Positions 13,562 through 44,356 of a DNA stretch of 64,000 bases are shown piece after piece; within the stretch, counting starts at the first letter, position 1, and each line of letters starts with the position of its first letter. The notes beneath the pieces were generated by a model that was not told the origin of the DNA, ran no database searches, and was given only the letters and a program-made list of their open reading frames with translations. The DNA lies in assembly GCF_900209925.1 (NCBI RefSeq), contig NZ_LT907978.1, positions 15,001 to 79,000 on the forward strand. The letters run 5' to 3'. Source of the stretch: Anaerobutyricum hallii (GTDB taxonomy: Bacteria; Bacillota; Clostridia; Lachnospirales; Lachnospiraceae). The translations under genes were made by a program, and so were the position numbers.

Positions 13562-13639
13562 ACAGACAAAACGCAAAAAGTATAATTATTGCGACCATCT
13601 TTACAGTTACAATAATCATACTTTTTGCGTTTCGTTTGT
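13562..13639 (-). repeat. LH hairpin element 0 (short member), also likely terminator
   Basis: Inverted repeat flanked by ACAG and CGTTTGT, with stem AAACGCAAAAAGTAT / ATACTTTTTGCGTTT and an inner ATTATTG/CAATAAT. Read on the minus strand, the loop region contains GTAAAGATGGTCGC, close to GTGAAGATAGTCGC of the element at 14807. It therefore looks like a shortened LH element oriented with the small ORF at 13661-13768. It lies 5 nt after the spmB stop and could end both convergent transcripts. Confidence 0.7.
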
Positions 13640-13660
13640 TTCTAATGAATTAAACTGAAA

Positions 13661-13768
13661 TTACAGAAGATAATCAGGTAAGTCAACTCCAAATCCATGA
13701 TGAACAAAACCGATATGTTCCAGTGTAATGTGTTCAATAGAAATCTTATTCAACGTCATATGCTGCAT
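13661..13768 (-). CDS. Small ORF, 35 aa, unknown function
   Basis: Not assigned to a family. ATG on the minus strand is preceded by GGGAGGGAAG at ideal spacing, and the frame gives 35 residues (MQHMTLNKISIEH...) ending with TAA. The peptide is rich in His, Ile and Leu with an acidic end (GVDLPDYLL) and has no signal peptide. A TATAAT with extended TGT lies about 35 nt upstream, and an LH hairpin follows the stop. The strong RBS and complete transcription-unit layout are the evidence. It could still be chance. Confidence 0.5.
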   Translation of the reverse strand: MQHMTLNKISIEHITLEHIGFVHHGFGVDLPDYLL

Positions 13769-13802
13769 ACTGCTTCCCTCCCAACTTAAATTCTGTTATT
13801 TT

Positions 13803-13831
13803 ATTATAACAAAAGAAAATCTATTTGAATA
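13803..13831 (-). promoter_or_regulatory. Possible promoter of the 35-aa small ORF
   Basis: On the minus strand TGTTATAAT is an extended -10. The -35 position (TATTCA at 17 bp) is weak. About 35 nt separate it from the start codon. Confidence 0.4.
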
Positions 13832-14027
13832 GAGGATAATAGATGAACTTCGGCTAATTTTTGGGCACAAATAGAAATTTTTTTGACATTAGCTTTCAAA
13901 AAAGAAATACAATGAAAAAGGATAAAAGATATGAAATAAAGACATTTTCAATAATGAGCTTTTTTTGAAATGTGAAATTGTCCAAGAAAAAAGGTATGAA
14001 ATGAAAAAAAATTATGAATATTGTGAA

Positions 14028-14055
14028 TTGAAAAAACAGAAAAATATTATATAAT
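14028..14055 (+). promoter_or_regulatory. Sigma-A-type promoter of the candidate small RNA
   Basis: TTGAAA, 16 bp, TATAAT. Transcription would begin near 14062. The stretch before it (13832-14027) is very AT-rich, with a weaker TTGACA/TACAAT pair at 13883-13913 spaced 19 bp, and no gene. Confidence 0.65.
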
Positions 14056-14061
14056 AAGAAA

Positions 14062-14188
14062 CGTTGAAAAACGAGTTGAGTCCTTGCGACGAGACCTTAA
14101 ATATAAATCTTAATTTTCCCCTTTAACTGCTTTGCAGATTCTATATGGTGCGTATCGAGTCATAATGATGACGTCGATGCGTTTTTTT
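14062..14188 (+). ncRNA. Candidate small RNA or attenuated leader, about 127 nt
   Basis: A promoter precedes this stretch and a strong intrinsic terminator ends it: CGTATCGAGTCA / TGACgTCGATGCG (one bulged G) with a 6-nt loop and seven T (14151-14188). No ORF with an RBS lies inside. The 5' portion (GTTGAGTCCTTGCGACGAGACC) does not match any riboswitch class that I recognise. The Nudix gene downstream has its own possible -10 (TATAAT at about 14210). So it may be a free small RNA, or a leader that controls that gene. Confidence 0.5.
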
Positions 14189-14793: not shown

Positions 14794-14806
14794 TTTCTGA
14801 GGGGAA

Positions 14807-14933
14807 ACAGACGAACAGCAAAAATTTATATAAAATAGAATGTGAAGATAGTCGCGGCATAGAAAATGCCTGGCCGGCATTTTTATTTGCTCCGACATCA
14901 CATTCTATTTTATATAAATTTTTGCTGTTCTGT
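14807..14933 (+). repeat. LH hairpin element 1
   Basis: A basal ACAG/CTGT pair with an ACG bulge on the 5' side, then a perfect 32-bp stem (14814-14845 with 14898-14929). The conserved internal loop has AGATAGTCGC on the 5' arm and GCTCCGACAT on the 3' arm. The apical stem is AAAATGCC/GGCATTTT. Oriented with the Nudix gene and starting 13 nt after its stop. The tail (GTTGGCTCCAGATGG, then TTCAGAAG) resembles the tails of other copies. Confidence 0.9.
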
Positions 14934-15126
14934 TTGTTGGCTCCAGATGGAATCTTCAGAAGAGAAAAATTTCTTGTTGTAGGATTTCATGTAGAAGTGA
15001 AGTTATCATGCGTCTAATATAACTAAATTTTAAGTATATACAACAATTAGAATGTCAGTCCTTTAGAATTTAATTCCATGGAAATCCATATCCTTCTGGA
15101 AAATTCCCATTCCTCCAACCTTAGAT

Positions 15127-15254
15127 TAGCCAGAAAAAAGAAAAAATGATATATCCCAGATGCGTCTTCGGAGCGTGTTTAAGATGCGGACGAGCATTTT
15201 AAACACAGCGACTACAGAGCAGATGGGATATATCATTTTTTCTTTTTTCGTCTA
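15127..15254 (-). repeat. LH hairpin element 2
   Basis: Minus-strand copy. Basal TAG..CTA pair, CCAG opposite CGT, a perfect 25-bp stem (15134-15158 with 15224-15248), internal loop CTTCGGAGC and GCGACTACAGAGC, apical stem TTTAAGATGC/GCATTTTAAA. The outer AAATC arm touches the stop codon of the metallopeptidase-like gene (15262). On its distal side, 15050-15126 shares sequence with the tail of element 5 (CCAGAAGGA, AATTAAA, CTAAAGGA blocks). Confidence 0.9.
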
Positions 15255-15261
15255 CACCAAA

Positions 15262-26227: not shown

Positions 26228-26935
26228 TTATCCATGTTTATGTCTGGGAACTTTTTTTGGTACAGGGTCTTTTGTTGTGAGAAACTGCACAGCTATTCCT
26301 AAACTGCAGAGCGCAAGTGTTAACGTTGCACTTGAGTTTGTGGAAGAAAACTTTGTAATTCCCATATATTCTGCAACACCAGGAAGAAGTCCGGCAGCGG
26401 AAGAACCGCATACGATTGCGGAAGTAAGGATAATAACCGGACGCATATATTTTACAGCAAGTACGCCAACAATAAGCCCGGCAACTATGTTGATAAAGAA
26501 CTGGATATCTCCTTCAAATGAAAATAATGTACCTGCAGCACTAAATGCAAAGGTAAAACACAGGATGAAAATTCCTATCCGGTAAATCCACAGGGCAAGA
26601 GCTGCAATGACCGCACCGCCAAGAATAATGCAGAGAACGGATGCAAAACCTTCGACATGAAGAAGCTGGGATGCAGCGATCTGGCCGATAAAGAGTCCAA
26701 TGATGAAACCGGTAATACTCATAAAAACTTTGGACAGTTTATAACCAAAGAAACATCCAAGAAGAGCAAAGACAAGAGCAATTACAGAGCCAACGATCTT
26801 ATAAGTGGTATCGGCTTCGGTTATGAGTCCGAGAAAACCATTATTAATAAAACTGTTCAGGCTGTCGCTGCTTCCGGAATTCAATGGAAGAGTGCCCATT
26901 AGGGAGCTGTAGTCAATATTTAACAGGGACAACAT
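26228..26935 (-). CDS. Polytopic membrane protein, TMEM198/TM7S3-like (DUF4203)
   Basis: 235 aa with about six or seven hydrophobic helices after a 45-residue N-terminal stretch, and a basic C-terminus (PRHKHG). The repeated GCFFGYKLSKVF...GFIIGLFIG pattern resembles the TM7S3/TMEM198-like family (DUF4203), whose bacterial role is unknown. It has its own RBS (AAGAAGG). It is convergent with nrdG and divergent from gltX. Confidence 0.7.
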   Translation of the reverse strand: MLSLLNIDYSSLMGTLPLNSGSSDSLNSFINNGFLGLITEADTTYKIVGSVIALVFALLGCFFGYKLSKVFMSITGFIIGLFIGQIAASQLLHVEGFASVLCIILGGAVIAALALWIYRIGIFILCFTFAFSAAGTLFSFEGDIQFFINIVAGLIVGVLAVKYMRPVIILTSAIVCGSSAAGLLPGVAEYMGITKFSSTNSSATLTLALCSLGIAVQFLTTKDPVPKKVPRHKHG

Positions 26936-28637: not shown

Positions 28638-28671
28638 AAATTCCAGGTTGTCAGCGCAGCTGACTGGATGA

Positions 28672-28799
28672 ACAGACGCCCCAGAGACTTTCCAATACTG
28701 TCAAAATGCTCAGTAGTCGCTGCGAGTAAAATGCCTCGGTCGGCATTTTCACTTGCTCCGAGTCGCATTTTGACAGTATTGGAAAGTCTCTGGGACTGT
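28672..28799 (+). repeat. LH hairpin element 3
   Basis: ACAG/CTGT pair, ACG bulge, a perfect 30-bp stem (28680-28709 with 28765-28794), internal loop TCAGTAGTCGCTG and TTGCTCCGAGTC, apical stem AAAATGCC/GGCATTTT with loop TCGGTC. Oriented with gltX. Immediately before it is a small hairpin GTCAGC/GCTGAC (28650-28664). The stretch to the next element (28800-29105) has no gene. Confidence 0.92.
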
Positions 28800-29105
28800 T
28801 TTGTTTCAAGCCGATGAGTGGCGGACAATAGAATTTTTAATTCCTGTAATTTTGTTTTTATGATTATTTTGAAATATATTAACAATCATGTGCACCCTAT
28901 TTCGGTAGAATCGCTGAGAGAGTAACTTAATATACCCTTATAGAAATAAGCAACTTAAAACATCAGTTTTTATTTTCAAATCTTTTTTGTCAGTCCGTCT
29001 GGATTCATCTCCTTATATCTTCCACAATCCTCTGTCTGATTCCCCTCCCCCTCCAACAATAAATTCTAGCCTAAAACACAGCCCACTGAAAAGTCCAGCC
29101 AAAAC

Positions 29106-29233
29106 ACAGAACTTCTAAAAAAGGATAATATAGAAAATGCGACTCGGAGCGCGTGAAAATGTCGCTCAAGGCATTTTGCTCGCAGCGACTACTGAGCATT
29201 TTCTACATTATCCTTTTTTAGAAGTTCGTCTGT
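29106..29233 (-). repeat. LH hairpin element 4
   Basis: Minus-strand copy. ACAG/CTGT pair with a CGT bulge on the 3' side, a 31-bp stem with one mismatch (29110-29140 with 29196-29226), internal loop GACTCGGAGC and CAGCGACTACTGAGC, apical AAAATG/CATTTT. Oriented with the minus-strand gene at 29277 and 43 nt past its stop. A small hairpin GTTTGC/GCAAAC lies between. Confidence 0.92.
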
Positions 29234-29276
29234 CTTATTAAACCCTTTCAGAGGGCGTCTCGTTTGCCTGCGCAAA

Positions 29277-29921: not shown

Positions 29922-29954
29922 AAAAATCCCCCTTTGCATAATGCAACAAGATAG

Positions 29955-30775: not shown

Positions 30776-30883
30776 TTTTTACCCCAATAATTTATTTAAA
30801 AATATAGTAAATATGGTAGGGTATAAAGCAGAAGAGAAAGTGTGTAAAGTATTTATATGTGTTAAAATGAAAGGAAGAAGGAT

Positions 30884-32554
30884 ATGAAAACAGATATTCA
30901 GATTGCACAGGAGGCAACAATGCTTCCAATTAAGGATGTAGCTGCGAATTATGGGATTACAGAAGATGATTTAGAATTATACGGAAAGTATAAGGCTAAG
31001 TTTTCTGATGAGTTTATGAACAGTCTTGATGAGAAACCAGATGGTAAACTTGTATTAATGACAGCGATTAACCCAACTCCTGCCGGAGAGGGAAAGACAA
31101 CAACAAGTATTGGTCTTGCACAGGCATTAGAGAAGTTAGGAAAGAAGTCTGTTCTTGCACTTCGTGAGCCTTCTCTTGGACCATGTTTCGGAATAAAAGG
31201 CGGAGCTGCTGGAGGCGGATATTCCCAGGTAGTTCCTATGGAAGATTTAAATCTTCATTTTACAGGTGATTTCCATGCGATCACATCTGCAAATAACTTA
31301 TTAGCAGCACTTCTGGATAATCATATTCAGCAGGGAAATGAGCTTCGTATCGATACAAGACAGGTAATCTGGAAACGTTGTATGGATATGAATGACCGTT
31401 CTCTTCGTAATATTGTCATTGGTCTTGGAAGAAAAGTAGACGGTTATGTAAGAGAAGATCATTTCGTCATTACAGTAGCAACAGAAATTATGGCGATTCT
31501 CTGTCTTGCAGAAGACATTAAAGACTTAAAAGAACGTTTATCAAAGATTATTGTAGCATATGATGTGGATGGTAATCCTGTAACTGCAGGACAGCTTAAT
31601 GCAGTTGGTTCTATGGCAGCATTATTAAAAGATGCGATTAAGCCAAATATGGTACAGACATTAGAGCATACAGGCGCAATCGTTCATGGAGGACCATTTG
31701 CTAATATTGCACATGGATGTAACAGTGTACGAGCTACAAAGATGGCGTTAAAGCTTTCTGATATTGCCATTACAGAGGCTGGATTCGGTGCAGATCTTGG
31801 GGCAGAGAAGTTCATGGATATTAAGTGCCGTATGGCAGGCTTAAAGCCAGACGCAGTTGTATTAGTAGCAACAGTTCGTGCTTTAAAATATAATGGTGGT
31901 GTTCCAAAAACAGACCTTGCAGAAGAAAATATGGATGCGTTGAAAAAAGGTATCTGTAATCTTGAAAAACATATCGAAAATCTTCAGAAATTTGGTGTGC
32001 CTATCGTTGTAACCTTAAATGCGTTTGTTACAGATACAGAAGCAGAACACGACTTTATCCGTCAGTTCTGTGAAGAAAGAGGATGTGAATTCGCTCTGTC
32101 TGAAGTATGGGCAAAAGGCGGCGAAGGTGGAATTGAACTCGCCAAGAAAGTATTGAAAACATTAGAAGAAAAAGAAAGTAATTTCAAAGTACTTTATCCA
32201 GATAATGCACCTTTAAAAGAAAAAGTAGAAACCATCGCAAAAGAGATTTACGGTGCAGATGGAGTGACATATGAGCCAGCAGCAGAAAAAATGCTTGCGA
32301 AACTTACAGATTTAGGATTCGGTGATCTGCCAGTATGTATGGCAAAAACACAGTATTCTCTTTCTGATGATCAGACAAAATTAGGACGTCCGGAAGGTTT
32401 TAACATTCATGTACGTGATGCTTTCGTAAATGCCGGAGCAGGTTTTGTTGTAATCCTTACCGGAGCAATCATGACAATGCCGGGATTACCAAAAAAACCA
32501 GCAGCATTTGGCATTGATGTAGATGATAATGGAAAGATCACAGGATTATTCTAA
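30884..32554 (+). CDS. fhs: Formate-tetrahydrofolate ligase
   Basis: ATP-dependent formation of 10-formyl-THF from formate and THF, feeding purine synthesis and one-carbon metabolism (also the Wood-Ljungdahl methyl branch). 556 aa. P-loop [10 protein letters not shown] (about 65-74), [14 protein letters not shown] (about 100-113), and the family segment [13 protein letters not shown] (about 298-310). The RBS is AAAGGAAGAAGG. Control by the ZTP riboswitch is predicted. LH element 5 follows 10 nt after the stop. Confidence 0.97.
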
Positions 32555-32563
32555 ATCCTGATT

Positions 32564-32716
32564 TGTAGATTTAATGTAGACGAAAAAAGAAAAAATGATA
32601 TATCCCATCTGCTCTGTAGTCGCTGTATTTAAGATGCTCATCCGCATCTTAAACACGCTCCGAAGCCGCATCTGGGATATATCATTTTTTCTTTTTTCTG
32701 GCTATCTAAATCTACA
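32564..32716 (+). repeat. LH hairpin element 5 with outer stem
   Basis: Core 32577-32704: TAG/CTA pair, ACG opposite CTGG, a perfect 25-bp stem (32583-32607 with 32673-32697), loop GCTCTGTAGTCGCTG and CGCTCCGAAGCCGC, apical TTTAAGATGC/GCATCTTAAA. An outer stem TGTAGATTT/AAATCTACA encloses the core. Tail 32717-32790 shares blocks with the tail of element 2. Oriented with fhs. Confidence 0.93.
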
Positions 32717-32942
32717 GTTGGGCAACGTGAAATGTACCAGAAGGACATGACTTTCCGGGAAATTAAAGTCTAAAGGATTGACGCATTTCTTCTGGAGTTT
32801 TTCATTTGAATAGAAATTGTATACTTCTGGACAATCTCTTTTCCTTAGAAACCTCAATGCAATTCAGCAGAAAGATACTCACTTCTGGGGAGCCCCCCTT
32901 ATTTTTTCTACACAAAATCCTGATTTCATCTGGCGCCAAAAA

Positions 32943-33071
32943 ACAGAAAAGCAAAAATTTACTATAGAAGAAAACGTGATGTCAGAGCCAGTAAAAATGT
33001 CGGTCAGACATTTTCTACGCCGCGACTATCTTCACATTTTCTTCTATAGTAAATTTCTGCTTTTCGTTTCT
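32943..33071 (-). repeat. LH hairpin element 6
   Basis: Minus-strand copy of the element-1 subtype. Stem of 33 bp with two mismatches (32947-32979 with 33032-33064), loop ATGTCAGAGCC and GCCGCGACTATCTTCAC, apical AAAATGTC/GACATTTT, basal ACAG with CGT. Upstream, 32868-32900 (CAATTCAGCAGAAA..ATACTCACTTCTGG) is the inverted counterpart of 42937-42975 in the tail of element 8. Confidence 0.9.
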
Positions 33072-33112
33072 TTAGTCCCTCAAATTAGCATTTAATCTCC
33101 ATGCTCACCAAC

Positions 33113-33265
33113 TGTAGATTTAGAATAGCCAGAAAAAAGAAAACATACCATATCCCAGATGCGACTTCGGAGCGTGTTTAAGATGCGGACGAGCATCTTA
33201 AATACAGCGACTACAGAGCAGATGGGATATGGTATGTTTTCTTTTTTCGTCTATATTAAATCTTA
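33113..33265 (-). repeat. LH hairpin element 7 with outer stem
   Basis: Core 33126-33253: TAG/CTA, CCAG opposite CGT, a perfect 25-bp stem (33133-33157 with 33223-33247), loop GACTTCGGAGCG and CAGCGACTACAGAGC, apical TTTAAGATGC/GCATCTTAAA. The outer arm TGTAGATTT pairs with AAATCTTA, which includes the stop codon of the following minus-strand gene. Its stem differs from elements 5 and 8 at positions that are compensated on the other arm. Confidence 0.92.
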
Positions 33266-34585
33266 TTCTATATTTAACCACATTGCTGGTTTTACAGTGA
33301 TATTAGTATTGGTTACTTCATATCCATAATCCATAACGGTTTTATCTTTGTATACAAAGCTCATAGAGTTTTCGGCTGCTCCTGGAGTACGAAGCCACCA
33401 GCAGCTTTTTGTTTCATGAATGGCATCATAATATTTTGCAACTTCATCACAGCTGAGTAAGAAGAATTTATCTTTCGTATTATTACCTGCTGGAGTTTTA
33501 TAGGTTGCATTTGGTGTGTTTTTTACAGTTGTTTCCAAAATACTGTTCCGTTCGTTTTCAGTGAAACTTTCCTGAAGAAAATTGTTGTTAAGCCATTCAC
33601 GTACGGAAGAAGATTCCCAAGTTACATTCTGCCCTTTGTCATCAAATGGTGTTGAACCGAAAGCATTATCTTTGAGTAAAAGTACTTTTCCATCTTTTTT
33701 ATCGAGTACTCTCCAGTCCATATGGGCAAAAGGAATTACTTCTCCTATTTTGGTGTTTTTAACGCGTGCTTTTTCTAATGTAACAAATTTAGATTCACTG
33801 TCTTTATAGTCTTCTTTAGAAAGTGCATTATAATTTTTATAGGCGGTATTCTCGTCTCCGTCTTTATAAGCTTGTTTTGCAGATTTGTAACGGTATTCTA
33901 ATGCTTTTTCATGGGCGGAAATATCTTTGTTCTTCATATAAACAATTTCGTAGTTCTGCCATGTTTTTTCATAGTTTCCTGTATGTGAGTAAATGCCGGC
34001 GAGACATTGTCTAAAGGAAACTGTCCGGGTGAAAAACAGTAATGCAAGCATACAAACGATGAAGGTACAGCTTACAAAAAGACTGTGACGTTTTAACTGG
34101 GAAGCTTTCTCATCTGCAAGCTTTTCACAGAGTTTCATCTGTTCTTCGGAATCATTACACTTGATGGCTTCTGCATATACAGAAGGCTCTGTCCATTTTT
34201 CAACGAGGGGATGTGTCTGCTCATAGTGGTAAATACGAGAAAAGATTGTTTGAGCAGAGTAGTAGTCATTCGGTGTTTTTGCTTTATCACGAATATGACA
34301 TGCTTCTTTATATAATTCTATTTTCCCTTCTGCGCGTGTGTTGAACTTCTTTTTCTTGAGTTCTCTAAGAAGTGGCCGCACATCTTTATAAGGTTTGACT
34401 TTTTTTAAATATTGGATAGCACGATGATAATATTTGCCCTGGTCTTCAAACTTATTCATATGTTCCGCTATATTAATATATCGGAGGGCAGTTTCATAGT
34501 TCTGCTGAGCCAGTTCTTCTTCCGATAAATTATCATGGGTTTCTTCGATGGTGAGATTGATATCAATTTTTTCATCATTTCTCAT
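33263..34585 (-). CDS. Membrane protein with TPR-like region and DUF6273-like C-terminal domain
   Basis: About 440 aa. The N-terminal half is cytoplasmic, charged and helical with tetratricopeptide-like spacing. One membrane helix lies near residues 175-195 (LFVSCTFIVCMLALLFF). A second helical segment (KTWQNYEIVY..SAKQAYKDGDENTAYKNY, in parts) follows outside. The C-terminal 170 residues (MDWRVLDKKDGKVLLL, then SSVREWLNN, SCWWLRTPG, VKPAMWL) match the DUF6273 domain common in Lachnospiraceae. Function unknown; secretion-surface display is inferred. The start after GAAAGGAAG is preferred to one 36 nt upstream. Confidence 0.78.
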   Translation of the reverse strand: MRNDEKIDINLTIEETHDNLSEEELAQQNYETALRYINIAEHMNKFEDQGKYYHRAIQYLKKVKPYKDVRPLLRELKKKKFNTRAEGKIELYKEACHIRDKAKTPNDYYSAQTIFSRIYHYEQTHPLVEKWTEPSVYAEAIKCNDSEEQMKLCEKLADEKASQLKRHSLFVSCTFIVCMLALLFFTRTVSFRQCLAGIYSHTGNYEKTWQNYEIVYMKNKDISAHEKALEYRYKSAKQAYKDGDENTAYKNYNALSKEDYKDSESKFVTLEKARVKNTKIGEVIPFAHMDWRVLDKKDGKVLLLKDNAFGSTPFDDKGQNVTWESSSVREWLNNNFLQESFTENERNSILETTVKNTPNATYKTPAGNNTKDKFFLLSCDEVAKYYDAIHETKSCWWLRTPGAAENSMSFVYKDKTVMDYGYEVTNTNITVKPAMWLNIE

Positions 34586-34762
34586 GGGAAGTTCTTCCTT
34601 TCTAAAAATATAGTGAGGCAAAATTATTCAGTGTTTCAGTGATAATGAAACGAATCTGAATAGCTGCAATCAAATTATGTTACCATTTTTTCGGACAAAA
34701 TACAAGGCGTTTGCGTAAGAAAACCATCTAATGGAAATTGTTCAATAAAAAAGGAATAAATG

Positions 34763-34792
34763 TTGAGAAAAATGCGGTAAGTGTGATAATAT
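34763..34792 (+). promoter_or_regulatory. Promoter region of the cysteine desulfurase gene
   Basis: TTGAGA, 18 bp, TAATAT, followed by a small hairpin AGAATGC/GCATTCT (34801-34818) in the 5' UTR. Nothing else is seen in 34586-34937. Confidence 0.5.
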
Positions 34793-34937
34793 ATTCAGAC
34801 AGAATGCTGAGGCATTCTTGAAAAAGTAAGTGTTGATAAATATGCTGTGCAATTTGTTATGCAATTTGCAATGAATTTCAAAGGCAATGATATTTTCTTT
34901 GGTATTGGCATGGTATTAGTATACGAGGAGGAAAAGC

Positions 34938-36074
34938 ATGATATATTTTGATAATGCGGCAACAACATTAAAGAAACCAGATGGAGTAGCACAGGCTGTT
35001 TCAGATGCTATCATGAATTTGGGGAATGCAGGAAGAGGTGCTTATGATGCATCTTTACATAGTATGCGAATGGCCTATGAAACGAGAGAATTATTGAATG
35101 AACTTTTTAATGGAGAGGGACCGGAGCAGATTGCGTTTATGTCTAATGCAACGGAAGCTTTAAATACGGCAATTAATGGGATGATTCAGCCGGGGAATCA
35201 TGTTGTGACAACGGTTATGGAACATAATTCGGTACTTCGTCCGTTATATTTAAAAGAACAGACAGGGGTTGCGCTTACTGTTTTGCCACTTGATGAGAAT
35301 GGGTTGATTTCCAGTGAAGCTTTTGAAGAGGCGATTCGTCCGGATACGGAAGCGGTTGTTTGTACGCATGCATCGAATGTAACAGGCACAGCGCTTAATT
35401 TATATAGGATAGGAGAAGCATGTAAACGTCATGGATTACATTTTATTGTTGATGCTTCACAGTCAGCAGGAATTCTTCCTATAGATATGCAGGCAATGAA
35501 CATTGATGCACTGTGCTTTACCGGGCATAAAGGATTGTTTGGACCGCAGGGAACGGGGGGAATCTGTCTTAGAAAGGGGATAACGATTCGCCCGCTAAAG
35601 GTAGGTGGAAGCGGAATACATTCTTTTGATAAAGAGCAGCCGCAGTTTATGCCGGAACTTTTAGAAGCCGGAACGATAAATGCACATGGGATTGCTGGTT
35701 TAAATGCTTCACTTAAATATCTGAAGAAGGAAGGCCTGGAAAAGTTATATACAAAAGAAGCGCTTCTTACGAAGACATTTTATGAGGGAGTGCGTCGTAT
35801 TGAGGGTGTGAGAGTGTATGGTAACTTTGACCAGGAAAAAAGAGCGCCTGTAGTATCGTTAAATATTCGGGACGAGGATGCAGGAAAGGTTAGTGAAATT
35901 CTTTGGGAAGATTATGGAATTGCAACAAGAGCAGGAGCACACTGTGCCCCGCTTATGCATGAAGCGCTAGAAACAACGGAGCAGGGTGTTGTCCGTTTTA
36001 GTTTCTCAAGTTTTAATACGATAGAAGAAATCAAACAGGGGATCGAAGCAATTCGGGAGCTTGCATCTGAATAA
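34938..36074 (+). CDS. Cysteine desulfurase family aminotransferase (class V)
   Basis: PLP enzyme of 378 aa, type TIGR01977-like (group II, NifS/SufS relatives). It would remove sulphur from cysteine as persulfide. YFDNAATT (about 3-10), the PLP lysine in TGHKGLFGPQGTGG (lysine near 197) and the active cysteine in RAGAHCAPLMH (about 337) are all present. No suf or isc scaffold gene is adjacent, so its acceptor is unknown. RBS GGAGGAAAA. Confidence 0.9.
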   Translation: MIYFDNAATTLKKPDGVAQAVSDAIMNLGNAGRGAYDASLHSMRMAYETRELLNELFNGEGPEQIAFMSNATEALNTAINGMIQPGNHVVTTVMEHNSVLRPLYLKEQTGVALTVLPLDENGLISSEAFEEAIRPDTEAVVCTHASNVTGTALNLYRIGEACKRHGLHFIVDASQSAGILPIDMQAMNIDALCFTGHKGLFGPQGTGGICLRKGITIRPLKVGGSGIHSFDKEQPQFMPELLEAGTINAHGIAGLNASLKYLKKEGLEKLYTKEALLTKTFYEGVRRIEGVRVYGNFDQEKRAPVVSLNIRDEDAGKVSEILWEDYGIATRAGAHCAPLMHEALETTEQGVVRFSFSSFNTIEEIKQGIEAIRELASE

Positions 36075-36202
36075 TAAAGATAAAATAAAAAATAGACAAT
36101 TATAAGCAGATTTTTCTTGCTTAAAAAGAATAAAATGACAAGAAATATTCGGTCCAGATATTTGCAAAAATGATAAAATGCACAAAATAATAACGATAAA
36201 TA

Positions 36203-36231
36203 TTGAAGTCTTAGTATAGTTATGCTATTCT
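36203..36231 (+). promoter_or_regulatory. Promoter of the small secreted protein gene
   Basis: TTGAAG, 17 bp, TATTCT; about 45 nt before the start. Confidence 0.65.
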
Positions 36232-36277
36232 AAATACAGTGTAAATAATGAAAACACCATAAAAGGAGGATATGAAT

Positions 36278-36982
36278 ATGAAGAAATTTACAAAAATCTT
36301 TGCATTTGCAATGGCATTGATGATGGTATTCGCACTTCAGGCTCCGGTAAGTGCAGCGGAAAAAGGAGCAGTGCAGGCTGTAAATCAAGAGCAGGCGCAA
36401 GCAACAGTACAGGCGGATACATATACACATAGAGTATATAGCCTTTATTACAATCAATCTATGAAAAAATGCCCAGTCACAATACAAGTTACAAGTAATT
36501 CTTCTAATCATTATACATATGAAGTTCAGTTATTAGATCATACGAAGAAAAAAGTTATCGCTCAGGATGATTGTGCATTATATGCATTTTTTGATTTAAA
36601 AAAGAATCAGCTTTATTACTATAGAGTAAGAGCAACTGCATATGATTATACACAGAAAAAATATGTTCCTGTTTCTGACTGGTCTTATGGTTATGGTATT
36701 AATACTGCTATATGTAAGGTTAAATTATCCGGTAAGAAGATTAAGATAAAAGTACCTAAAGTAAAGGGTGTTAAGAAGTTTACTTTGTATATGTCAACAA
36801 AGAGTGATAAAGGATATAAAAAAGTTAAGAAAGTAAAACCGGGAAAGACAGTCGTAATATCTAAGTTTAAGAATAAGGCATTTAAGAATGGAAAATATTA
36901 TTATTATAATGTTGTTTCTAAGAAAAATGAAACAAGATTAAAACATAATTTCCATATTTACACCAAATATGTTCGTAGATAG
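36278..36982 (+). CDS. Secreted protein with fibronectin-III-like region
   Basis: About 234 aa. Signal peptide to PVSAAE (about 28). A first beta-rich region (about 50-145) with YYRVRATAYDYTQ, and a C-terminal region with VKLSGKKIKIKVPKVKGVKK spaced like the Lys-rich fibronectin-type-III domains of Lachnospiraceae surface proteins. No catalytic residues are seen. The second of two near ATGs has the better spacing from AGGAGG. Monocistronic. Confidence 0.75.
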   Translation: MKKFTKIFAFAMALMMVFALQAPVSAAEKGAVQAVNQEQAQATVQADTYTHRVYSLYYNQSMKKCPVTIQVTSNSSNHYTYEVQLLDHTKKKVIAQDDCALYAFFDLKKNQLYYYRVRATAYDYTQKKYVPVSDWSYGYGINTAICKVKLSGKKIKIKVPKVKGVKKFTLYMSTKSDKGYKKVKKVKPGKTVVISKFKNKAFKNGKYYYYNVVSKKNETRLKHNFHIYTKYVRR

Positions 36983-36991
36983 GTAAATATT

Positions 36992-37045
36992 AAAAATCCC
37001 AGTAAGGGGAAGGCTTTTTAGCCTTTCCTTTACTGGGATTTTTTT
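36992..37045. terminator. Bidirectional terminator
   Basis: AAAAATCCCAGTAA / TTACTGGGATTTTT with an inner GGAAGGCT/AGCCTTTCC stem and a TTT loop, between convergent genes; T-runs on both strands. Confidence 0.92.
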
Positions 37046-37055
37046 GGAGTATCAA

Positions 37056-38642
37056 TTAGTCAGCTTTTGGACCTGCTTCTGCGATATTCTTTGGCATGTT
37101 AGGATATTTCTTAGTGAAGTTATCCTGGAACATCTTAGCAAGCTTTTTAGCCTGTGCATCGTAAGCAGCTTTATCTTCCCATGTGTCACGAGGGTTCATG
37201 ATTTCAGAAGGTACGTTAGGACATGTCTGAGGAATGTCTACGTTAAATACTTCATCATGTTTGTACTCTACATCATCAAATGTTCCGTTTAATGCTGCAG
37301 TTACCATTGCACGAGTATATTTTAACTTCATACGGCTTCCTACTCCGTAAGGACCGCCTGTCCATCCTGTGTTTACAAGATATACTTTTGTGTTGTATTT
37401 TTCAATTCTTTCTCCAAGCATGTTAGCGTATACAGATGGATCCATTGGCATGAATGGTTCACCGAATAATGTGGAGAATGTTGGCTGTGGTTCTGTGATT
37501 CCACGTTCTGTACCAGCAAGTTTGGATGTGAATCCTGTTACGAAGTGGTACATAGCAGCGTTCTCATCTAATCTGGAGATTGGAGGAAGTACACCGAATG
37601 CATCAGCAGTTAAGAAGATAACTACTTTAGGGATTCCGCCAACACCAGGGATCTGTGCGTTAGAAATATAATCAACTGGGTATCCTACACGAGTATTCTC
37701 TGTAAGAGATCCATCATCAAAATCAAATTCACGAGTTTCGTCATCCATGACAACGTTCTCTACAAGGCTTCCGAACTTAATCGCATTGTAGATTTCTGGT
37801 TCGTTTTCAGCGCTTAAGTTGATACATTTAGCGTAGCATCCACCTTCGAAGTTGAAGATTCCTCTGTCAGACCAGCCATGCTCATCATCACCGATTAATT
37901 TACGGTTAGGATCAGCGGAAAGAGTAGTCTTACCTGTTCCGGATAAACCAAAGAATACTGCTGTTTCATGAGTTTCAGGATCCATGTTAGCGGAGCAGTG
38001 CATTGGAAGCACGCCTTCTTTTGGCATTAAGAAGTTCATTACAGAGAATACAGACTTCTTAATTTCTCCTGAGTACTGAGAACCACAGATTACTACCTGT
38101 TTCTGTTCATAGTCAACGATGATAGCTGCTTCAGAATGAGTTCCATCGATTTCTGGAATACACTTGAATCCAGGTGCAACGAAGATTGTGAAATCAGCTT
38201 CGCCGTAGTTTTCTAATTCTTCTGCTGTAGGACGAATTAAAAGCTCATGAATGAAAAGATTCTGGCTTGCTAACTCGTTAATGATACGGAACTTTCTTGT
38301 GCAGACAGGATCAGCACCAGCCTTACCATCAAAGATGAAGATTTCTCTGTTCTGAAGGTAAGCAACTACTTTTGAACGGATAGCATTGAACTTCTCCTGA
38401 GTGATAGGAACGTTAACGCTTCCCCATGCAATGTCATCATGAACAGAAGGAGTATCAACGATGAATTTATCTTTAGGAGAACGTCCTGTATATTTACCTG
38501 TAGTTACAACGAGTGCGCCTGTATTAGAGAGTTTGCCCTCTCCTCTTCTTAAAGCTGCCTCTGTTAACTGTGCAGGTGTTAAGTTGCGGTAAACTGCTTT
38601 AGGATTCACAATCCCAAGTTTCTCGATACCATATGTTTCCAT
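37056..38642 (-). CDS. pckA: Phosphoenolpyruvate carboxykinase (ATP)
   Basis: Interconverts oxaloacetate + ATP and PEP + CO2 + ADP. In fermenting anaerobes it often runs towards oxaloacetate. 528 aa. It has GRSPKDKFIVD (about 54-64), the kinase-1a P-loop GLSGTGKTTLSAD (about 235-247), and DDEHGW / NFEGGCYAK (about 253-275) with the metal-binding residues. RBS TAGGAGG. It has its own strong promoter. Confidence 0.97.
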   Translation of the reverse strand: METYGIEKLGIVNPKAVYRNLTPAQLTEAALRRGEGKLSNTGALVVTTGKYTGRSPKDKFIVDTPSVHDDIAWGSVNVPITQEKFNAIRSKVVAYLQNREIFIFDGKAGADPVCTRKFRIINELASQNLFIHELLIRPTAEELENYGEADFTIFVAPGFKCIPEIDGTHSEAAIIVDYEQKQVVICGSQYSGEIKKSVFSVMNFLMPKEGVLPMHCSANMDPETHETAVFFGLSGTGKTTLSADPNRKLIGDDEHGWSDRGIFNFEGGCYAKCINLSAENEPEIYNAIKFGSLVENVVMDDETREFDFDDGSLTENTRVGYPVDYISNAQIPGVGGIPKVVIFLTADAFGVLPPISRLDENAAMYHFVTGFTSKLAGTERGITEPQPTFSTLFGEPFMPMDPSVYANMLGERIEKYNTKVYLVNTGWTGGPYGVGSRMKLKYTRAMVTAALNGTFDDVEYKHDEVFNVDIPQTCPNVPSEIMNPRDTWEDKAAYDAQAKKLAKMFQDNFTKKYPNMPKNIAEAGPKAD

Positions 38643-38702
38643 TGTAATACCTCCTAAGTTATATTTGAATTAACTAATACCAATTTTTCAACAATCGTTC
38701 CT

Positions 38703-38731
38703 AGTATAGCAATGAAGGATTGAAATGTCAA
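38703..38731 (-). promoter_or_regulatory. pckA promoter
   Basis: On the minus strand TTGACA, 17 bp, TATACT; near-perfect sigma-A promoter about 60 nt before the start codon. Confidence 0.88.
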
Positions 38732-38812
38732 TTATTCAAAACAAATAAAATGACTAATTGTGAGAAAAAATATTAAAAATATTTAAAAATCAAGGGTATT
38801 TACATATATCTT

Positions 38813-40609
38813 TTAAGAAACATTACTGAGAATTTCTGTTTCTTTTTCTATTTCCTGTCTTAAAATTGAAAAATTGCAGGAACCAACATTCAGAACTGCT
38901 TCATGAAAATCAGAAATTTTAAAAGCTTTTCCGAGGGAATCAGCCATAGTTTGTTTTAATTGATCTAATTCGTAGCAGCCGATACTGTAGGAGAGATAAG
39001 TTGTCGGATTTTCAATGACATAACGATAAAGCTTTTGGGCACCATCTTTATCTATGCCATAAGTCTGTAAGTAATTTGCCAGAGCATTTTCATCATAATT
39101 TTTATAATTTACATACAGATCGCTGAGAGAAGATAAGGATAGCGAGAGCAGGTCATTATCCCGGTAAAGCTGGCGGAGCTGCTTTGTTGTTTGTTCATCG
39201 ACATTTTTAAATTCAATAAAGTTATAGCTGTATAGCTGAGCGTAAGTTCCCCAGCCTTCATCATAGCCGGCACAGTGGAGAAATGTCCGAAGGGGAGAGG
39301 GATTCGTAGTTAAAAAATAATTTGTCTGATACAGATGTCCCGGATAGCCTTCGTGAGCAAGGGTAGAAAATAATTCATTAGAATCCACGCGGCTTTTATT
39401 TATGTAAATAATATTATCTTTGGTGCTGTCGATTGGCGGTACAAGGTAGAATGCACAGGCGGAAGTACCGGAGAGTGCATCAGGAACATTTTTGAGCTGG
39501 CAGGAAATATTTTTTATTTCCGGAAAGTCGATTAGCGAATCATTTTTTAACGTGTTCATAATTTCTTTTGGTGCAGAAAGAGCAGGAGTTGCAGAGAGAT
39601 ATTCTGTATACAAATCCTTATTCTTTGTAGTGAGAGAAGAAATATCTTTTACTGTATTTTTTAACTGTGATTCTAAAATAGTAATACAGTCTTCCGGAGA
39701 AAAATCTGTTCCTACATTAGATATAAGCAAAAACTTATAATAATCCTGCCCATTTTTATACTCGCAAAGTCTTTCTTTAGAAGAAGTATTTTTTGATTCA
39801 TTTATATAAGTTTGTAAAGAAGTTTTCAGTGATTTATATGCAGGAAAAACTTTATCGGTAACAAGCAGACGGTTATTTGCAATATAACTTGCTTTCTGGT
39901 CTTTACTTAAAGATTCTACCTCAGCTAAACGTTCCTCAAAGCTTTGGATGAGGAGATTATTTTCTTCACTTGCATTGAGAAACTGATCAATCTGATCAAT
40001 GGTATCAGAAATTACGAAAGAAGGACTTATGATACCTGCATTTCGCCGTTCCTGTTCAAAATCAAGAATCTGAGTAAAAAGTTCAGGAACCTGGTTGACA
40101 AGAGAAAGATAATCTTTTACGTCTTTTTCGTTATCCAGGCGGTATTCAGAAAGAGTTACCGGAATTTCGGACTGTAAACCGTTTGTGCCAAGTGGGGAAG
40201 AATAAAGGATGTATTTTTCGTTCATAATAGATTCGTTCAGATAATCCTGAAAAATCTGCCAGGTAAGTTTTTGCTTTTTTGTCAGATTGCTTGTTGGAAA
40301 GGTATAAAGTTTTTGAAGTAATTCTTTTGAACGGCTACAGTTCTTTTTTAAAGTATCGGAAGAAAGATCTCCATAGGTTGGAGAGACAGGGGTTTTGATT
40401 CCATATGCAGACGGATTCGAAAGTTTAAAATGAAGAGTGACGGTATTTTCAGCAGCATATTCCCTGAAACAAGAGTTAAGAAAGCGGTCAAACTTCTTTT
40501 GCTGTAAAGAAGTTTGCGTAGAAGCTTGTCCGCAGCCAAACAGGATGGTTCCGGAAAGCAGAATAAAACAGATGCTGGCAAATAGTGTGTGACGATGGTT
40601 TTTCTTCAT
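38813..40609 (-). CDS. DUF885 family lipoprotein, probable metallopeptidase
   Basis: 598 aa. Signal peptide with lipobox LFGC (about 23-26). The DUF885 signature HEGYPGHLYQ (about 415-424) has the zinc HExxxxH-like site; a second Glu lies in DEGWGTYAQLY about 35 residues on. Predicted exported peptidase anchored to the membrane, with unknown substrate. The start has GGAGGC upstream. Separate from pckA, on the same strand. Confidence 0.87.
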   Translation of the reverse strand: MKKNHRHTLFASICFILLSGTILFGCGQASTQTSLQQKKFDRFLNSCFREYAAENTVTLHFKLSNPSAYGIKTPVSPTYGDLSSDTLKKNCSRSKELLQKLYTFPTSNLTKKQKLTWQIFQDYLNESIMNEKYILYSSPLGTNGLQSEIPVTLSEYRLDNEKDVKDYLSLVNQVPELFTQILDFEQERRNAGIISPSFVISDTIDQIDQFLNASEENNLLIQSFEERLAEVESLSKDQKASYIANNRLLVTDKVFPAYKSLKTSLQTYINESKNTSSKERLCEYKNGQDYYKFLLISNVGTDFSPEDCITILESQLKNTVKDISSLTTKNKDLYTEYLSATPALSAPKEIMNTLKNDSLIDFPEIKNISCQLKNVPDALSGTSACAFYLVPPIDSTKDNIIYINKSRVDSNELFSTLAHEGYPGHLYQTNYFLTTNPSPLRTFLHCAGYDEGWGTYAQLYSYNFIEFKNVDEQTTKQLRQLYRDNDLLSLSLSSLSDLYVNYKNYDENALANYLQTYGIDKDGAQKLYRYVIENPTTYLSYSIGCYELDQLKQTMADSLGKAFKISDFHEAVLNVGSCNFSILRQEIEKETEILSNVS

Positions 40610-40803
40610 AGCGGCCTCCTTTTATATCATTTTTATATCAGAAGATGAAAAGTATTTGGTATTATACTATGAATTATACAGGAAAACTATTAGTTTTTCA
40701 GAAAAATAACCATAGACGAATATTCGGATTTATTTTATAATAAAAAATGTTTGACTATAGATAGTACACCTAAGGACAGGTTGCACAGGAGGTATATAGA
40801 TAA

Positions 40804-42771
40804 ATGAGTAAGAAACCATATTACATTACGACTGCGATTGCTTATACATCAGGTAAGCCTCATATCGGAAATACTTATGAGATCGTTTTAGCAGATGCAA
40901 TTGCAAGATTTAAAAGAAAAGAAGGCTATGATGTACGTTTCCAGACAGGAACCGATGAACATGGCCAGAAGATTGAGTTAAAGGCAGAAGAGGCTGGAAT
41001 TTCTCCAAAGGAATTCGTAGACAATACTGCAAAAGAGATTAAGAGAATCTGGGATTTAATGAATACATCCTATGATAAGTTTATCCGTACAACAGATGAA
41101 GATCATGAGAAACAAGTTCAGAAGATTTTTAGAAAACTGTATGATAAAGGAGATATTTATAAGGGATATTACGAAGGAATGTACTGTACACCATGTGAAT
41201 CATTCTTTACAGAATCTCAGTTAGTAGATGGTAAGTGTCCGGATTGTGGACGTCCATGCCAGCCTGCAAAGGAAGAGGCATATTTCTTCCGTATGAGTAA
41301 ATATGCAGACCGTCTGATTCAGTATATTAATGAGCATCCTGACTTTATTCAGCCGGAATCCCGTAAGAACGAGATGATGAATAACTTCCTTTTACCGGGA
41401 CTTCAGGACTTATGTGTATCCCGTACTTCTTTCACATGGGGTATTCCTGTAGATTTTGATCCAAAGCATGTTACTTATGTATGGCTTGATGCATTAACAA
41501 ACTATATTACAGGTCTTGGATATGACTGTGATGGGGAAAGTGGAGAATTATTTAAGAAATACTGGCCGGCAGACTTACATTTGATCGGTAAAGATATTAT
41601 TCGTTTCCATACAATTTACTGGCCGATCTTCCTAATGGCATTAGATCTCCCACTTCCAAAACAGGTATTTGGTCATCCTTGGTTATTACAGGGTGATGGT
41701 AAGATGAGTAAATCAAAAGGAAATGTTATTTATGCAGATGATCTTGTAGAGTTATTTGGTGTAGATGCTGTCCGCTATTTTGTACTTCATGAGATGCCTT
41801 TTGAAAATGATGGTGTTATTACATGGGATCTTTTAGTAGAACGTATGAATTCCGACCTTGCGAATACTCTTGGAAATCTTGTTAACCGTACTATTTCCAT
41901 GTCTAATAAATACTTTAATGGTGTTGTTGCCAATGCTGGTGTCACAGATGGATTTGATAAGAATCTTATGGATGTGGCATTAGATACAAAGCATAAAGTA
42001 GTAAAATGTATGTCCAAACTCAGAGTAGCAGATGCTATGACAGAGATTTTTAACTTATTTAAACGTTGTAATAAATACATTGATGAGACAATGCCATGGG
42101 CTTTAGCAAAAGATCCTGAGAAGAAAGACAGACTGTCTACTGTCCTTTATAATTTAGTAGAGAGCATCACAATCGGTGCTTCCTTACTTACTCCGTTCAT
42201 GCCGGAAACAGCAGAAAGAATCTTTGCCCAGCTTAATTCTTCTGAAAGAAGCATGGATGAACTTGAGATGTTTGGTCTTTATAAGTCTGGTAATAAGGTA
42301 ACAGATAAACCGGAAATTCTTTTCGCAAGACTTGATGCAAAAGAAGTACAGGCAAAAGTTGAGGAAATGAATGCTTCAAAACAGACACAGGAAGCAGAAG
42401 AAGAGAAAAAAGATGATGAACCTGTAATTGATATCGAAGCCAAAGAAGAGATTACATTTGATGATTTTGAAAAAATGCAGTTCCAGGTTGGCGAGATCAT
42501 TGCCTGCGAGGAAGTAAAGAAGTCCAAAAAACTTCTCTGTTCTCAGGTTAAGATTGGAAGCCAGGTAAAACAGATTGTTTCCGGTATCAAGAAACATTAC
42601 AGTGCAGAAGAAATGGTTGGCAAGAAAGTTATGGTACTTGTGAACTTAAAACCTGCTAAATTAGCTGGAGTTCTTTCTGAAGGTATGCTTTTATGTGCTG
42701 AGGACGAAAATGGAGAATTATCTCTTATGGTTCCAGAAAAGAAGATGCCAGCAGGAGCAGAAATCTGTTAA
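40804..42771 (+). CDS. metG: Methionyl-tRNA synthetase
   Basis: Class I synthetase of 655 aa. HIGH-type motif PHIGNTYE (about 18-25), zinc knuckle CTPCESFF..CPDCG (about 127-148), KMSKSKGN (about 301-308). After a Glu/Lys-rich linker (about 515-540) a C-terminal Trbp/EMAP-II-like OB fold (about 547-655; FQVGEI, then NLKPAKLAGVLSEGM) binds tRNA and supports dimers. No T-box is seen upstream. LH element 8 begins 2 nt after the stop. tatD and rsmA follow as in Bacillus. Confidence 0.97.
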   Translation: MSKKPYYITTAIAYTSGKPHIGNTYEIVLADAIARFKRKEGYDVRFQTGTDEHGQKIELKAEEAGISPKEFVDNTAKEIKRIWDLMNTSYDKFIRTTDEDHEKQVQKIFRKLYDKGDIYKGYYEGMYCTPCESFFTESQLVDGKCPDCGRPCQPAKEEAYFFRMSKYADRLIQYINEHPDFIQPESRKNEMMNNFLLPGLQDLCVSRTSFTWGIPVDFDPKHVTYVWLDALTNYITGLGYDCDGESGELFKKYWPADLHLIGKDIIRFHTIYWPIFLMALDLPLPKQVFGHPWLLQGDGKMSKSKGNVIYADDLVELFGVDAVRYFVLHEMPFENDGVITWDLLVERMNSDLANTLGNLVNRTISMSNKYFNGVVANAGVTDGFDKNLMDVALDTKHKVVKCMSKLRVADAMTEIFNLFKRCNKYIDETMPWALAKDPEKKDRLSTVLYNLVESITIGASLLTPFMPETAERIFAQLNSSERSMDELEMFGLYKSGNKVTDKPEILFARLDAKEVQAKVEEMNASKQTQEAEEEKKDDEPVIDIEAKEEITFDDFEKMQFQVGEIIACEEVKKSKKLLCSQVKIGSQVKQIVSGIKKHYSAEEMVGKKVMVLVNLKPAKLAGVLSEGMLLCAEDENGELSLMVPEKKMPAGAEIC

Positions 42772-42773
42772 TA

Positions 42774-42927
42774 TGTAGATTTCGTGGAGACGAAAAAAGA
42801 AAAAATACCATATCCCATCTGCTCTGTAGTCGCTGTATTTAAGATGCTCGTCCGCATCTTAAATACGCTCCGAAGCCGCATCTGGGATATGGTATTTTTT
42901 CTTTTTTCTGACTATTCTAAATCTACA
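42774..42927 (+). repeat. LH hairpin element 8 with outer stem
   Basis: Core 42788-42913: AG/CT pair, ACG opposite CTGA, a perfect 25-bp stem (42793-42817 with 42883-42907), loop and apical stem nearly identical to element 5. Outer stem TGTAGATTT/AAATCTACA, then ACAGTTGG as in elements 5 and 7. Oriented with metG. Its stem differs from element 5 by three bases that are matched by three changes on the other arm. Confidence 0.93.
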
Positions 42928-43082
42928 GTTGGTAAGGATGGGGATTCTCCAGAAGTGAGTATATTTCTGCCGAATTGTATCAGATTTTCTTTATTATAAA
43001 TTCTTTACAATTCAGCATGAAATTTTGTTTCAGCGGCTGAAGGAATGTTTATTGCTGAATTGCTAAAAGATTGTGGAAAAGA

Positions 43083-43241
43083 GAAGAAACTTCTTAATTA
43101 AGTATTACATTTTGTGACTTTGTGCTATGGAATTCTGACCATAGGAACTTAGGACTCATTTTTCCTAAGTTCCTGTTTTTCTGGGCAGAATGGAATGTTT
43201 AGCGCAACGGAACAAAATGAAACTTAATAAGAAGTTTCTTC
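43083..43241. repeat. Nested inverted repeat between metG and tatD
   Basis: Outer arms GAAGAAACTTCTTA (43083) and TAAGAAGTTTCTTC (43228-43241), continued inward by CATTTTGT/ACAAAATG. Inside lie CTATGG/CCATAG and a perfect GGAACTTAGGA/TCCTAAGTTCC hairpin (43144-43173) followed by a T-run. CAATTCAGC occurs three times around it (near 43008, 43056 on the other strand, and 43263). No gene is visible between 42928 and 43335. Confidence 0.75.
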
Positions 43242-43335
43242 TTGTTCATAGTTTGGAATGCAATTCAGCTAAGTAATCAAGCTGCCTTCAGTGGCGTATG
43301 TTTCCTTTAGCAATTAGCAATTAAAGAGGTATATT

Positions 43336-44106
43336 ATGATTTTTGATACACATTCTCATTATAATGACAAGCAATATACACAGGACAGGGAAGCTGTCCT
43401 TGCATCTTTAGAAGATGCAGGTGTAACACAGGTAGTAAATGTAAGTGCGAGCTGGAAAGATTTACAGGATACGTTAGAGCTTATTCAGAAGGTTCCGTTT
43501 ATGTATGGGGCAGTCGGAATTCACCCGGATCATGTTGGCGAGTTGAATGAAGAGCGGTTGAGACAGCTTCGGGAATATTGCCACAGAGACAAGGTTGTTG
43601 CAGTTGGAGAAATCGGACTGGATTATCACTGGAACGTAGAACCAAAGGAAGTACAGCAGGAATGGTTTGTCAGGCAGCTTCATCTTGCAACAGAAGAAAA
43701 ACTGCCGGTAATTATACACAGCAGAGAAGCTTCACAAGATACATTTGATATTATGAAAAAGGAACATGCAGGGACAACAGGCGGTGTGATCCACTGTTTT
43801 TCCGGTTCTGCTGAGATGGCAAAAGAATATGTGAAAATGGGGTATTATATCGGTGTAGGTGGTGTTGTTACTTTTAAAAATTCTCGTGTATTAAAGGAAG
43901 TGGTAAAGGCTATTCCTTTAGAGCATATTGTGGTAGAAACGGATTGTCCTTATCTTGCGCCAACACCGCATAGGGGAAAGAGAAACAGTTCTGCATATCT
44001 GCCGTTAGTTATAGAAGAAATCGCGAAATTGAAAGGAATTACGGCAGAAGAAGTAGAAAATGCAACTTATGAAAATGCTCAGAGATTATATGGCTTAATT
44101 CGTTAG
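43336..44106 (+). CDS. tatD: TatD family metal-dependent hydrolase / DNase
   Basis: Amidohydrolase-fold metal-dependent nuclease of 256 aa. Metal ligands are in FDTHSHYND (about 3-11), VGEIGLDYH (about 92-100), IHSREAS (about 127) and VETDCPYLAP (about 200-209). Position after metG matches the conserved metG-tatD-(rnmV)-rsmA order. The RNase M5 gene that usually follows is absent here and is replaced by LH-type repeats. Confidence 0.93.
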   Translation: MIFDTHSHYNDKQYTQDREAVLASLEDAGVTQVVNVSASWKDLQDTLELIQKVPFMYGAVGIHPDHVGELNEERLRQLREYCHRDKVVAVGEIGLDYHWNVEPKEVQQEWFVRQLHLATEEKLPVIIHSREASQDTFDIMKKEHAGTTGGVIHCFSGSAEMAKEYVKMGYYIGVGGVVTFKNSRVLKEVVKAIPLEHIVVETDCPYLAPTPHRGKRNSSAYLPLVIEEIAKLKGITAEEVENATYENAQRLYGLIR

Positions 44107-44228
44107 GCAAGCAGAGTTCTGTTTTTTGGCTGCTTTGAGATGAATGAAACCAATGGGAGTCTTATCGACTGAGATAAACTATGTATTAGAACTTCAACAT
44201 TATATAGTGATTTTTTCTTTAGCCAAAG

Positions 44229-44356
44229 ACAGAAATTGAGAAAGGGGCAATATGTAAAAAATGCGCCTTAGAGCAAGTTCAAGCTGCGGTTGAGCAGTTT
44301 GGACGTAGTGATACGAAGCATTTTTTACATATTGCCCCTTTCTCAATTTCGTCTCT
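44229..44356 (-). repeat. LH hairpin element 9
   Basis: ACAG with CGT at the far end, a perfect 32-bp stem (44233-44264 with 44318-44349), diverged internal loop GCCTTAGAGCA and ACGTAGTGATACGAA, apical AGCTGC/GCAGTT. By its ends it is in minus orientation, but both flanking genes are on the plus strand; it is the clear exception to the orientation trend. Confidence 0.85.

Follow-up and report, generated by a model that had tools for sequence, protein, structure and literature searches.

LH1, a possible giant REP-like palindrome in two sister species of Anaerobutyricum

Repetitive extragenic palindromic (REP) sequences and bacterial interspersed mosaic elements, with their GTAG and CGTC families, are high-copy palindromes that lie mostly downstream of coding regions, often as inverted pairs; the REPs measure 20-40 bp and often supply a stop codon, and for those of the CGTC families no dedicated transposase is reported in the account given there (PMC3733652). 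The main text of the same paper contains neither the word Firmicutes nor the word stem Clostridi (PMC3733652). Here we describe LH1, a long-hairpin family detected in a window of 64,000 nucleotides (contig NZ_LT907978.1, positions 15,001 to 79,000, or G000:C1:15001-79000) of an Anaerobutyricum genome of 3.52 Mb, called the source genome (G000), and in its sister genome, Anaerobutyricum hallii DSM 3353 (G017). Like the REPs described in that account, LH1 is extragenic, present in high copy downstream of genes and often supplies the stop codon. Its complementary strand ends in CGTCT, which recalls the CGTC tag. Unlike REPs, it has a hairpin of about 130-145 nt, to which an outer stem is added, and combines a mismatched internal loop that is conserved with a stem whose sequence is free (PMC3733652). 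It also resembles the hairpin-forming REP elements (REPINs) described with the REP-associated transposase RAYT, which are likewise non-autonomous and amplified within a genome; in contrast to that description, no Y1 transposase gene bounded by LH1 was found in the source genome, and LH1 is conserved at its foot and top and variable in between (PMC3116915). The foot AGACG, which reads CGTCT on the other strand, is conserved in A1 and A4; its C and G are paired in the model, where the GTAG or CGTC tag of a REP stands unpaired at one foot, and a CCA tail was not seen. Because its size lies outside that of REPs and no RAYT was found, LH1 is not filed as a REP. Among the repeats of Firmicutes, bcr1 of the Bacillus cereus group has traits of a mobile element and is likened to LH1 by description only, in its size and folding. 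A search of the open-access PubMed Central literature found no paper on LH1. We give an even chance to the reading that LH1 is a giant, non-autonomous, dispersed, REP-like palindromic element of the two sister species, spread by a mobiliser and with arms matched by DNA copying.

Anatomy, copy number and range of LH1

An earlier note, made from the window alone, had claimed a dispersed family of long hairpins, and all the copies that it named could be confirmed, with inverted repeats, a loop motif and a covariance model (CM) as the means. An inverted-repeat search of the window returned nine arm pairs, starting at 14813, 15133, 28680, 29109, 32582, 32938, 33132, 42792 and 44232, with arms of 30-42 nt that are 88-100% complementary and 52-55 nt apart. 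The exact loop pair TAGTCGC/GCTCCGA occurs seven times in the window against 0.01 expected, and the copies at 32943 and 44229 carry variant loops. The CM scores the nine full copies of the window at 97-113 bits; eight of them are among its 21 training copies and score high by construction, and the copy at 33125, absent from the training set, reaches 109.6 bits. The element at 13562, which had been counted as a short copy, is not a full member and turned out to be a distant relative (37 bits, minus strand) that has no internal loop.

Read along the sense strand, the 5′ half of the element consists of an outer stem, the foot AGACG, a stem of about 30 bp with a lower and a middle part, the loop strand TAGTCGC and the apical stem; the 3′ half follows with a short apical loop (longer in type D), GCTCCGA, the matching arm, CTG and the outer stem. 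The constant parts are the foot (AGACG...CTG), the mismatched internal loop and the apical stem, and the middle stem can take any sequence provided that its two arms match. The layout first proposed, with variable stems, a conserved internal loop and an asymmetric base, is retained with one correction, that the element reaches past this stem into the outer stem and, in many copies, into additional palindromic sequence beyond it.

Genome-wide, the exact loop motif is found 166 times in the source genome and 152 times in DSM 3353, and the reversed pattern in neither. Since the CM finds more places than the strict motif (nine versus seven in the window, 22 versus 18 in three 20-kb regions picked for density), the total in the source genome is estimated at roughly 200-215 copies. 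The covariance model and the genome search that had been proposed have thus uncovered a family larger than first reported, and the proposed search for relatives led to the copies of DSM 3353. For the comparison with Rfam, which had also been proposed, the whole window was scanned, and no Rfam family exceeded its gathering score on LH1; between 28500 and 33400, with E values of up to 1, the copies gave microRNA models only, far below the gathering score.

Application of the strict motif to 61 genomes gave, besides these two, one match each in four genomes and none in 55. The window belongs to another species of Anaerobutyricum (Lachnospiraceae) than DSM 3353, probably A. soehngenii, and LH1 is a family of these two sister species. 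A type-D pattern matched 103 stretches across genome contigs, and among the 80 matches listed all were in Anaerobutyricum hallii DSM 3353. Twenty other members of the genus have a metG match, and in 11 of them the CM detected no LH1 at the fetched metG locus; over 299 genomes, each standing for one genus of the bacterial family, it detected LH1 in the source genome only, which is a weak test of absence, as 11 candidates were scored per genome. Phage sequences searched with one type-A copy and with the window element E4 gave no match, nor did plasmids searched with the type-A copy; in viral contigs 71 stretches fit a loose LH1 pattern, as pattern matches alone.

Subtypes and stems were counted in 106 of the 166 copies of the source genome and 61 of the 152 of DSM 3353, mainly those with listed places. 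The former comprise 49 copies of type A, 29 of type B, 20 of type C, three of type D and five unclassified ones; the latter 52 of type D, three of type A and six unclassified ones. Among 68 copies with a type-A/C top, the middle 14 bp occur in 45 arm combinations, of which 26 (49 copies) are perfectly paired, and at one position of the middle stem all four Watson-Crick pairs occur. Contigs C8, C10, C16, C27, C34, C48, C52 and C82 of DSM 3353 carry LH1 within about 530 nt of their start, which suggests that the hairpins may break draft assemblies.

Covariation and its cause

Covariation is the usual proof of a conserved RNA structure, and in LH1 it is strong. The alignment of 21 copies has 89.1% of its cells paired and 43 of 54 pairs changed on both sides. 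Cells changed on both sides number 299, compared with 100.8 (sd 7.6) in shuffles, none of 500 of which reaches 299; this comparison is not a probability, because related copies can exceed shuffles without any structure. Slid controls gave 88-113 such cells. The signal was weakest for further pair types, a measure on which 19 of 500 shuffles equalled the real alignment. The earlier note had concluded from the covarying stems that a folded single strand is under selection. The covariation stands; the step to a selected strand does not, since G·T pairs and A·C mismatches are about equally common. At stem positions 8-30, 167 copies have 29 G·T and 26 A·C beside 3633 Watson-Crick pairs; there are also 70 T·C cells, most of them due to a tandem mismatch that type A conserves. 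The window also contains a signal recognition particle (SRP) RNA and seven tRNAs, and in their predicted folds G·U accounts for 38 of 251 pairs (15.1%); the LH1 stem, with 29 G·T in 3662 pairs (0.8%), has them about 19 times more rarely than these helices.

A cleaner count was restricted to 121 copies that fit subtype motifs (63 of 65 of type A/C, 24 of 26 of type B and 34 of 40 of type D), copies with more than three mismatches being dropped. It gave 494 double against 29 single changes, cells that count copies and not independent events, and 11 cells that differ on both sides without pairing; the single changes were 11 G·T, 11 A·C and seven others. The lack of a G·T excess over A·C, unlike what is expected for one selected folded strand, leads us to infer a symmetry at the DNA level, so that the arms probably match through arm-to-arm copying or because another copy has replaced the two arms jointly. 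Template switching is described as a process that creates and corrects perfect stems by copying one half from the other, introduces several compensatory changes at once and inverts loops; the hairpins of that description were studied in RNA sequences, unlike LH1, which is a dispersed bacterial repeat family (PMC8794818).

Symmetric copies bear on the same point. The combination TCGGAGC..GCTCCGA occurs at three places in the source genome, at none in DSM 3353, and at one place each in two other genomes, G020 and G022, where the CM finds no LH1. The three copies of the source genome (352143, 2515270 and 3146072; CM 88-100 bits) are symmetric through stem and loop, one of them being a 55-bp perfect palindrome, and all three keep asymmetric feet, one ACG and one CTG. 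An inversion between two copies would have left both feet of one kind, so these copies are better explained by copying inside the hairpin. The combination TAGTCGC..GCGACTA was found at one place in the source genome and at three in DSM 3353, with 1-4 reversed controls in five other genomes; the copy in the source genome has two 5′ feet and unlike arms, and those in DSM 3353 join, by eye, the arms of unlike copies. When feet were classed by script, 127 of the 167 copies had normal feet, two had other kinds, 30 were not classed and eight had no clear stem; by eye, some of the unclassed copies have both feet of one kind.

Gene ends, mobilisers and competing explanations

LH1 was expected to lie behind genes in sense orientation, and its placement bears this out. 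With sense open reading frames (ORFs) of at least 70 codons and 97 and 51 usable copies in the source genome and DSM 3353, respectively, the foot is no more than 40 nt from the stop codon of such an ORF at 68 and 29 copies and no more than 20 nt from it at 41 and eight. Opposing ORFs end within 40 nt of the CTG foot at seven of 97 and four of 43. The conserved outer stem of many copies contains the stop codon, and the genes of the window that end at LH1 include gltX, the formate--tetrahydrofolate ligase gene and metG, as named by family scan.

In a sample of 103 + 58 upstream pieces, four genes of the source genome also precede a DSM 3353 copy, which is of another subtype; a fifth is doubtful, as the match stops 445 nt before the copy. 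A syntenic comparison covered 15 element-bearing gene ends of the source genome with an ortholog in DSM 3353, further copies in these stretches being left out if no gene precedes them or a usable ortholog is lacking. The ortholog carries an intact element of another subtype at five (metG, 315350, 327660, 2876981 and 2886624), truncated, invaded or loop-less remnants, judged by eye, at eight, and no element at two, one of which is of unsure orthology. At locus L241 a DSM 3353 copy lies where the source genome has an intergenic gap of 88 nt, in a different gene order. LH1 positions are therefore partly shared and their sequences species-specific, a pattern that is read as partly ancestral presence followed by homogenisation and that may alternatively reflect repeated insertion at favoured gene ends.

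This placement also suits the first of the two hypotheses of the earlier note, a structured RNA 3′ end. On this reading LH1 would terminate transcription or stabilise the mRNA, and compensatory selection acting on the transcript would keep its stem paired. The sense orientation, the position on the stop codon, the strong covariation, the gene ends that bear an element in both species, the LH1 of DSM 3353 at a gene end where the source genome has a terminator-like hairpin, and the 3′ arm that appears U-rich by eye in types A-C all speak for it. We nevertheless find it unlikely: G·U pairs are nearly absent and do not exceed A·C, type-D stems have, by eye, no U tract, and LH1 does not show the features of intrinsic terminators, a short GC-rich stem and a T run behind it, a terminator scan of 26500-45500, covering loops of 3-8 nt only, having listed no copy. 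The second hypothesis, a non-autonomous element read as a folded strand, keeps its place thanks to the conserved mismatched loop, which suggests that some factor recognises the fold. In its ordinary form, a miniature inverted-repeat transposable element (MITE) or a passenger of the IS200/IS605 type moved by a transposase still in the genome, it would account for the dispersal, the high copy number and an outer stem that resembles terminal inverted repeats (AAATACTAATTT/AAATTAGTATTT). Type B lies behind or inside type A at loci L040, L042, L052, L066, L078 and L083, and the source genome has seven Y1 transposase matches, two of these loci with LH1 copies nearby. Against such a MITE, which we rate as rather improbable, stand the orientation towards the upstream gene, a bias not expected of it, and the scanned transposase loci, none of which has LH1 as its ends. 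GGGGATT flanks B on both sides at L066 and L078, and because it also belongs to the tail of stand-alone B it is no clean target-site duplication; of the MITE features, the outer inverted stem and one empty gene end remain. The IS200/IS605-type transposase ORFs at 794010 and 1908961 of the source genome are near-identical (three differences in 135 positions). A folded recombination site like the attC site of integrons, with gene and hairpin as a movable unit, shares the variable stem, the conserved unpaired features, the stop-codon position and the species-specific sequence; it is very improbable, given copies dispersed behind core genes such as metG, gltX and formate--tetrahydrofolate ligase and not set in arrays.

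In the reading of LH1 as a REP-like element, a putative mobiliser reading the foot and the loop would have spread it. Copies would later have been replaced by others, or have exchanged sequence with them, through ectopic conversion, which would give the species-specific subtypes; gene conversion of REPs was reportedly described by Higgins in 1988. The arms would be kept matched by DNA copying between them, by template switching or inverted-repeat conversion, and not by compensatory mutation under RNA selection, and the copies may have been retained because a hairpin behind a stop codon does no harm or makes a useful mRNA 3′ end. Several observations weigh against this account. None of the seven Y1 loci of the source genome, the genome in which Y1 was searched for, is bounded by LH1, nor is any of the seven scanned among 11 reverse transcriptase loci (nine matches in the source genome and two partial ones in DSM 3353 within one frame of 606 codons). 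In 80 loci of DSM 3353 (586,659 bases and 1005 ORFs, possibly overlapping) no cluster of at least three related genes lies near LH1; two clusters of 5-6 related genes occur, both at a median distance of kilobases. Seen from DSM 3353, positions are less shared: for four LH1 hits in a 20-kb syntenic stretch, the source genome has an intact element at metG, a core-less remnant at tatD and none at two, with nothing upstream of ORF 33263-34621 and a terminator-like hairpin of 20 pairs at 36995-37040, the end of ORF 37056-38642. One gene end (L233) is clearly filled in the source genome and empty in DSM 3353, a single case that is too little for target rules. The cleaner stem count leaves uncounted the 36 of 167 copies that lie outside its motifs. 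Its double changes are transversions in 297 of 494 (60%) and transitions in 197, in contrast to single changes, which are mostly transitions (22 of 29); simple mutation followed by copying does not predict this, and block replacement must contribute. The four 5′-5′ symmetric copies seem to have arisen by recombination between inverted copies. An apical A·C mismatch is kept in 49 of 55 type-D and 21 of 71 type-A/C copies, which shows that the top is not made symmetric and that part of the fold escapes correction. A wider proposal, which we put forward tentatively and with some doubt, is that the fold is inherited without its sequence: the arms would be rewritten jointly in DNA by arm-to-arm copying and block exchange, and a trans-acting factor would hold the foot and the mismatched loop constant, which would yield nearly complete covariation without compensatory selection.

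The elements of the window and the meaning of the family

The distant relative E1 (13562..13640, minus strand; CM 37.3 bits and fold) lies directly behind ORF 13026-13556. It is followed by E2 (14806..14937, plus strand, 113.1 bits), which has a perfect stem of 33 bp and a type-B-like loop, and by the type-A element E3 (15126..15256, minus strand, 109 bits). E4 (28671..28803, plus strand, 102.6 bits) has a GC-rich stem and lies behind gltX, assigned by family scan to glutamate--tRNA ligase, and E5 occupies 29102..29234 on the minus strand (97.6 bits). Upstream of the formate--tetrahydrofolate ligase gene, 30663-30756 gives a match resembling a ZMP/ZTP riboswitch, at 36.7 bits against a gathering score of 39. 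Behind that gene lies E6 (32575..32705, plus strand, type A, 107.1 bits), followed on the minus strand by E7 (32939..33072, type B, variant loop GCTCTGA, 112.1 bits) and E8 (33125..33255, type A), the non-training copy, which is placed behind the minus-strand ORF 33263-34621. The type-A element E9 (42785..42915, plus strand, 111.2 bits) lies behind metG and extends to 42774..42927 with its outer stem TGTAGATTT / AAATCTACA, as given by fold and inverted repeat.

E10 (44225..44357, minus strand, 102.4 bits) is a diverged subtype with a variant loop and has no gene directly in front on its strand. It represents a further subfamily, with matches of 69-133 nt at 14 places in DSM 3353 among the matches listed; at the orthologous site there (L221), a type-D element appears by eye to be fused into the right arm of E10. 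A second hairpin family, LH2, is represented at 43083..43245 (no strand assigned) with the inner motif CATTTTGTGACTTTGTGC / GCGCAACGGAACAAAATG and a repeat depth of 17 among the fetched loci. It has a variable stem, is repeated in both genomes and sits inside LH1 remnants in DSM 3353 (L221, L223, L235 and L239). LH1 surroundings are often larger palindromic clusters, with inverted LH1 pairs, LH2 inside LH1 remnants and long inverted tails. Upstream of ksgA, at 44531-44650, there is a long imperfect hairpin with 30-nt arms, 60 nt apart and 90% complementary, which the LH1 CM does not match.

Two gut bacteria, whose genus is known to produce butyrate, have LH1 at a few hundred of their gene ends. 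Its stems covary as those of a conserved RNA would, and the wobble counts point to DNA copying as the probable cause. If this is upheld, covariation tests need a control for wobble pairs and strand asymmetry; and if the fold is indeed inherited without its sequence, LH1 would be an example from nature that speaks against taking covariation as proof of an RNA function. The family also offers many natural replicates in which arm-to-arm template switching and inverted-repeat exchange can be measured in a bacterium.

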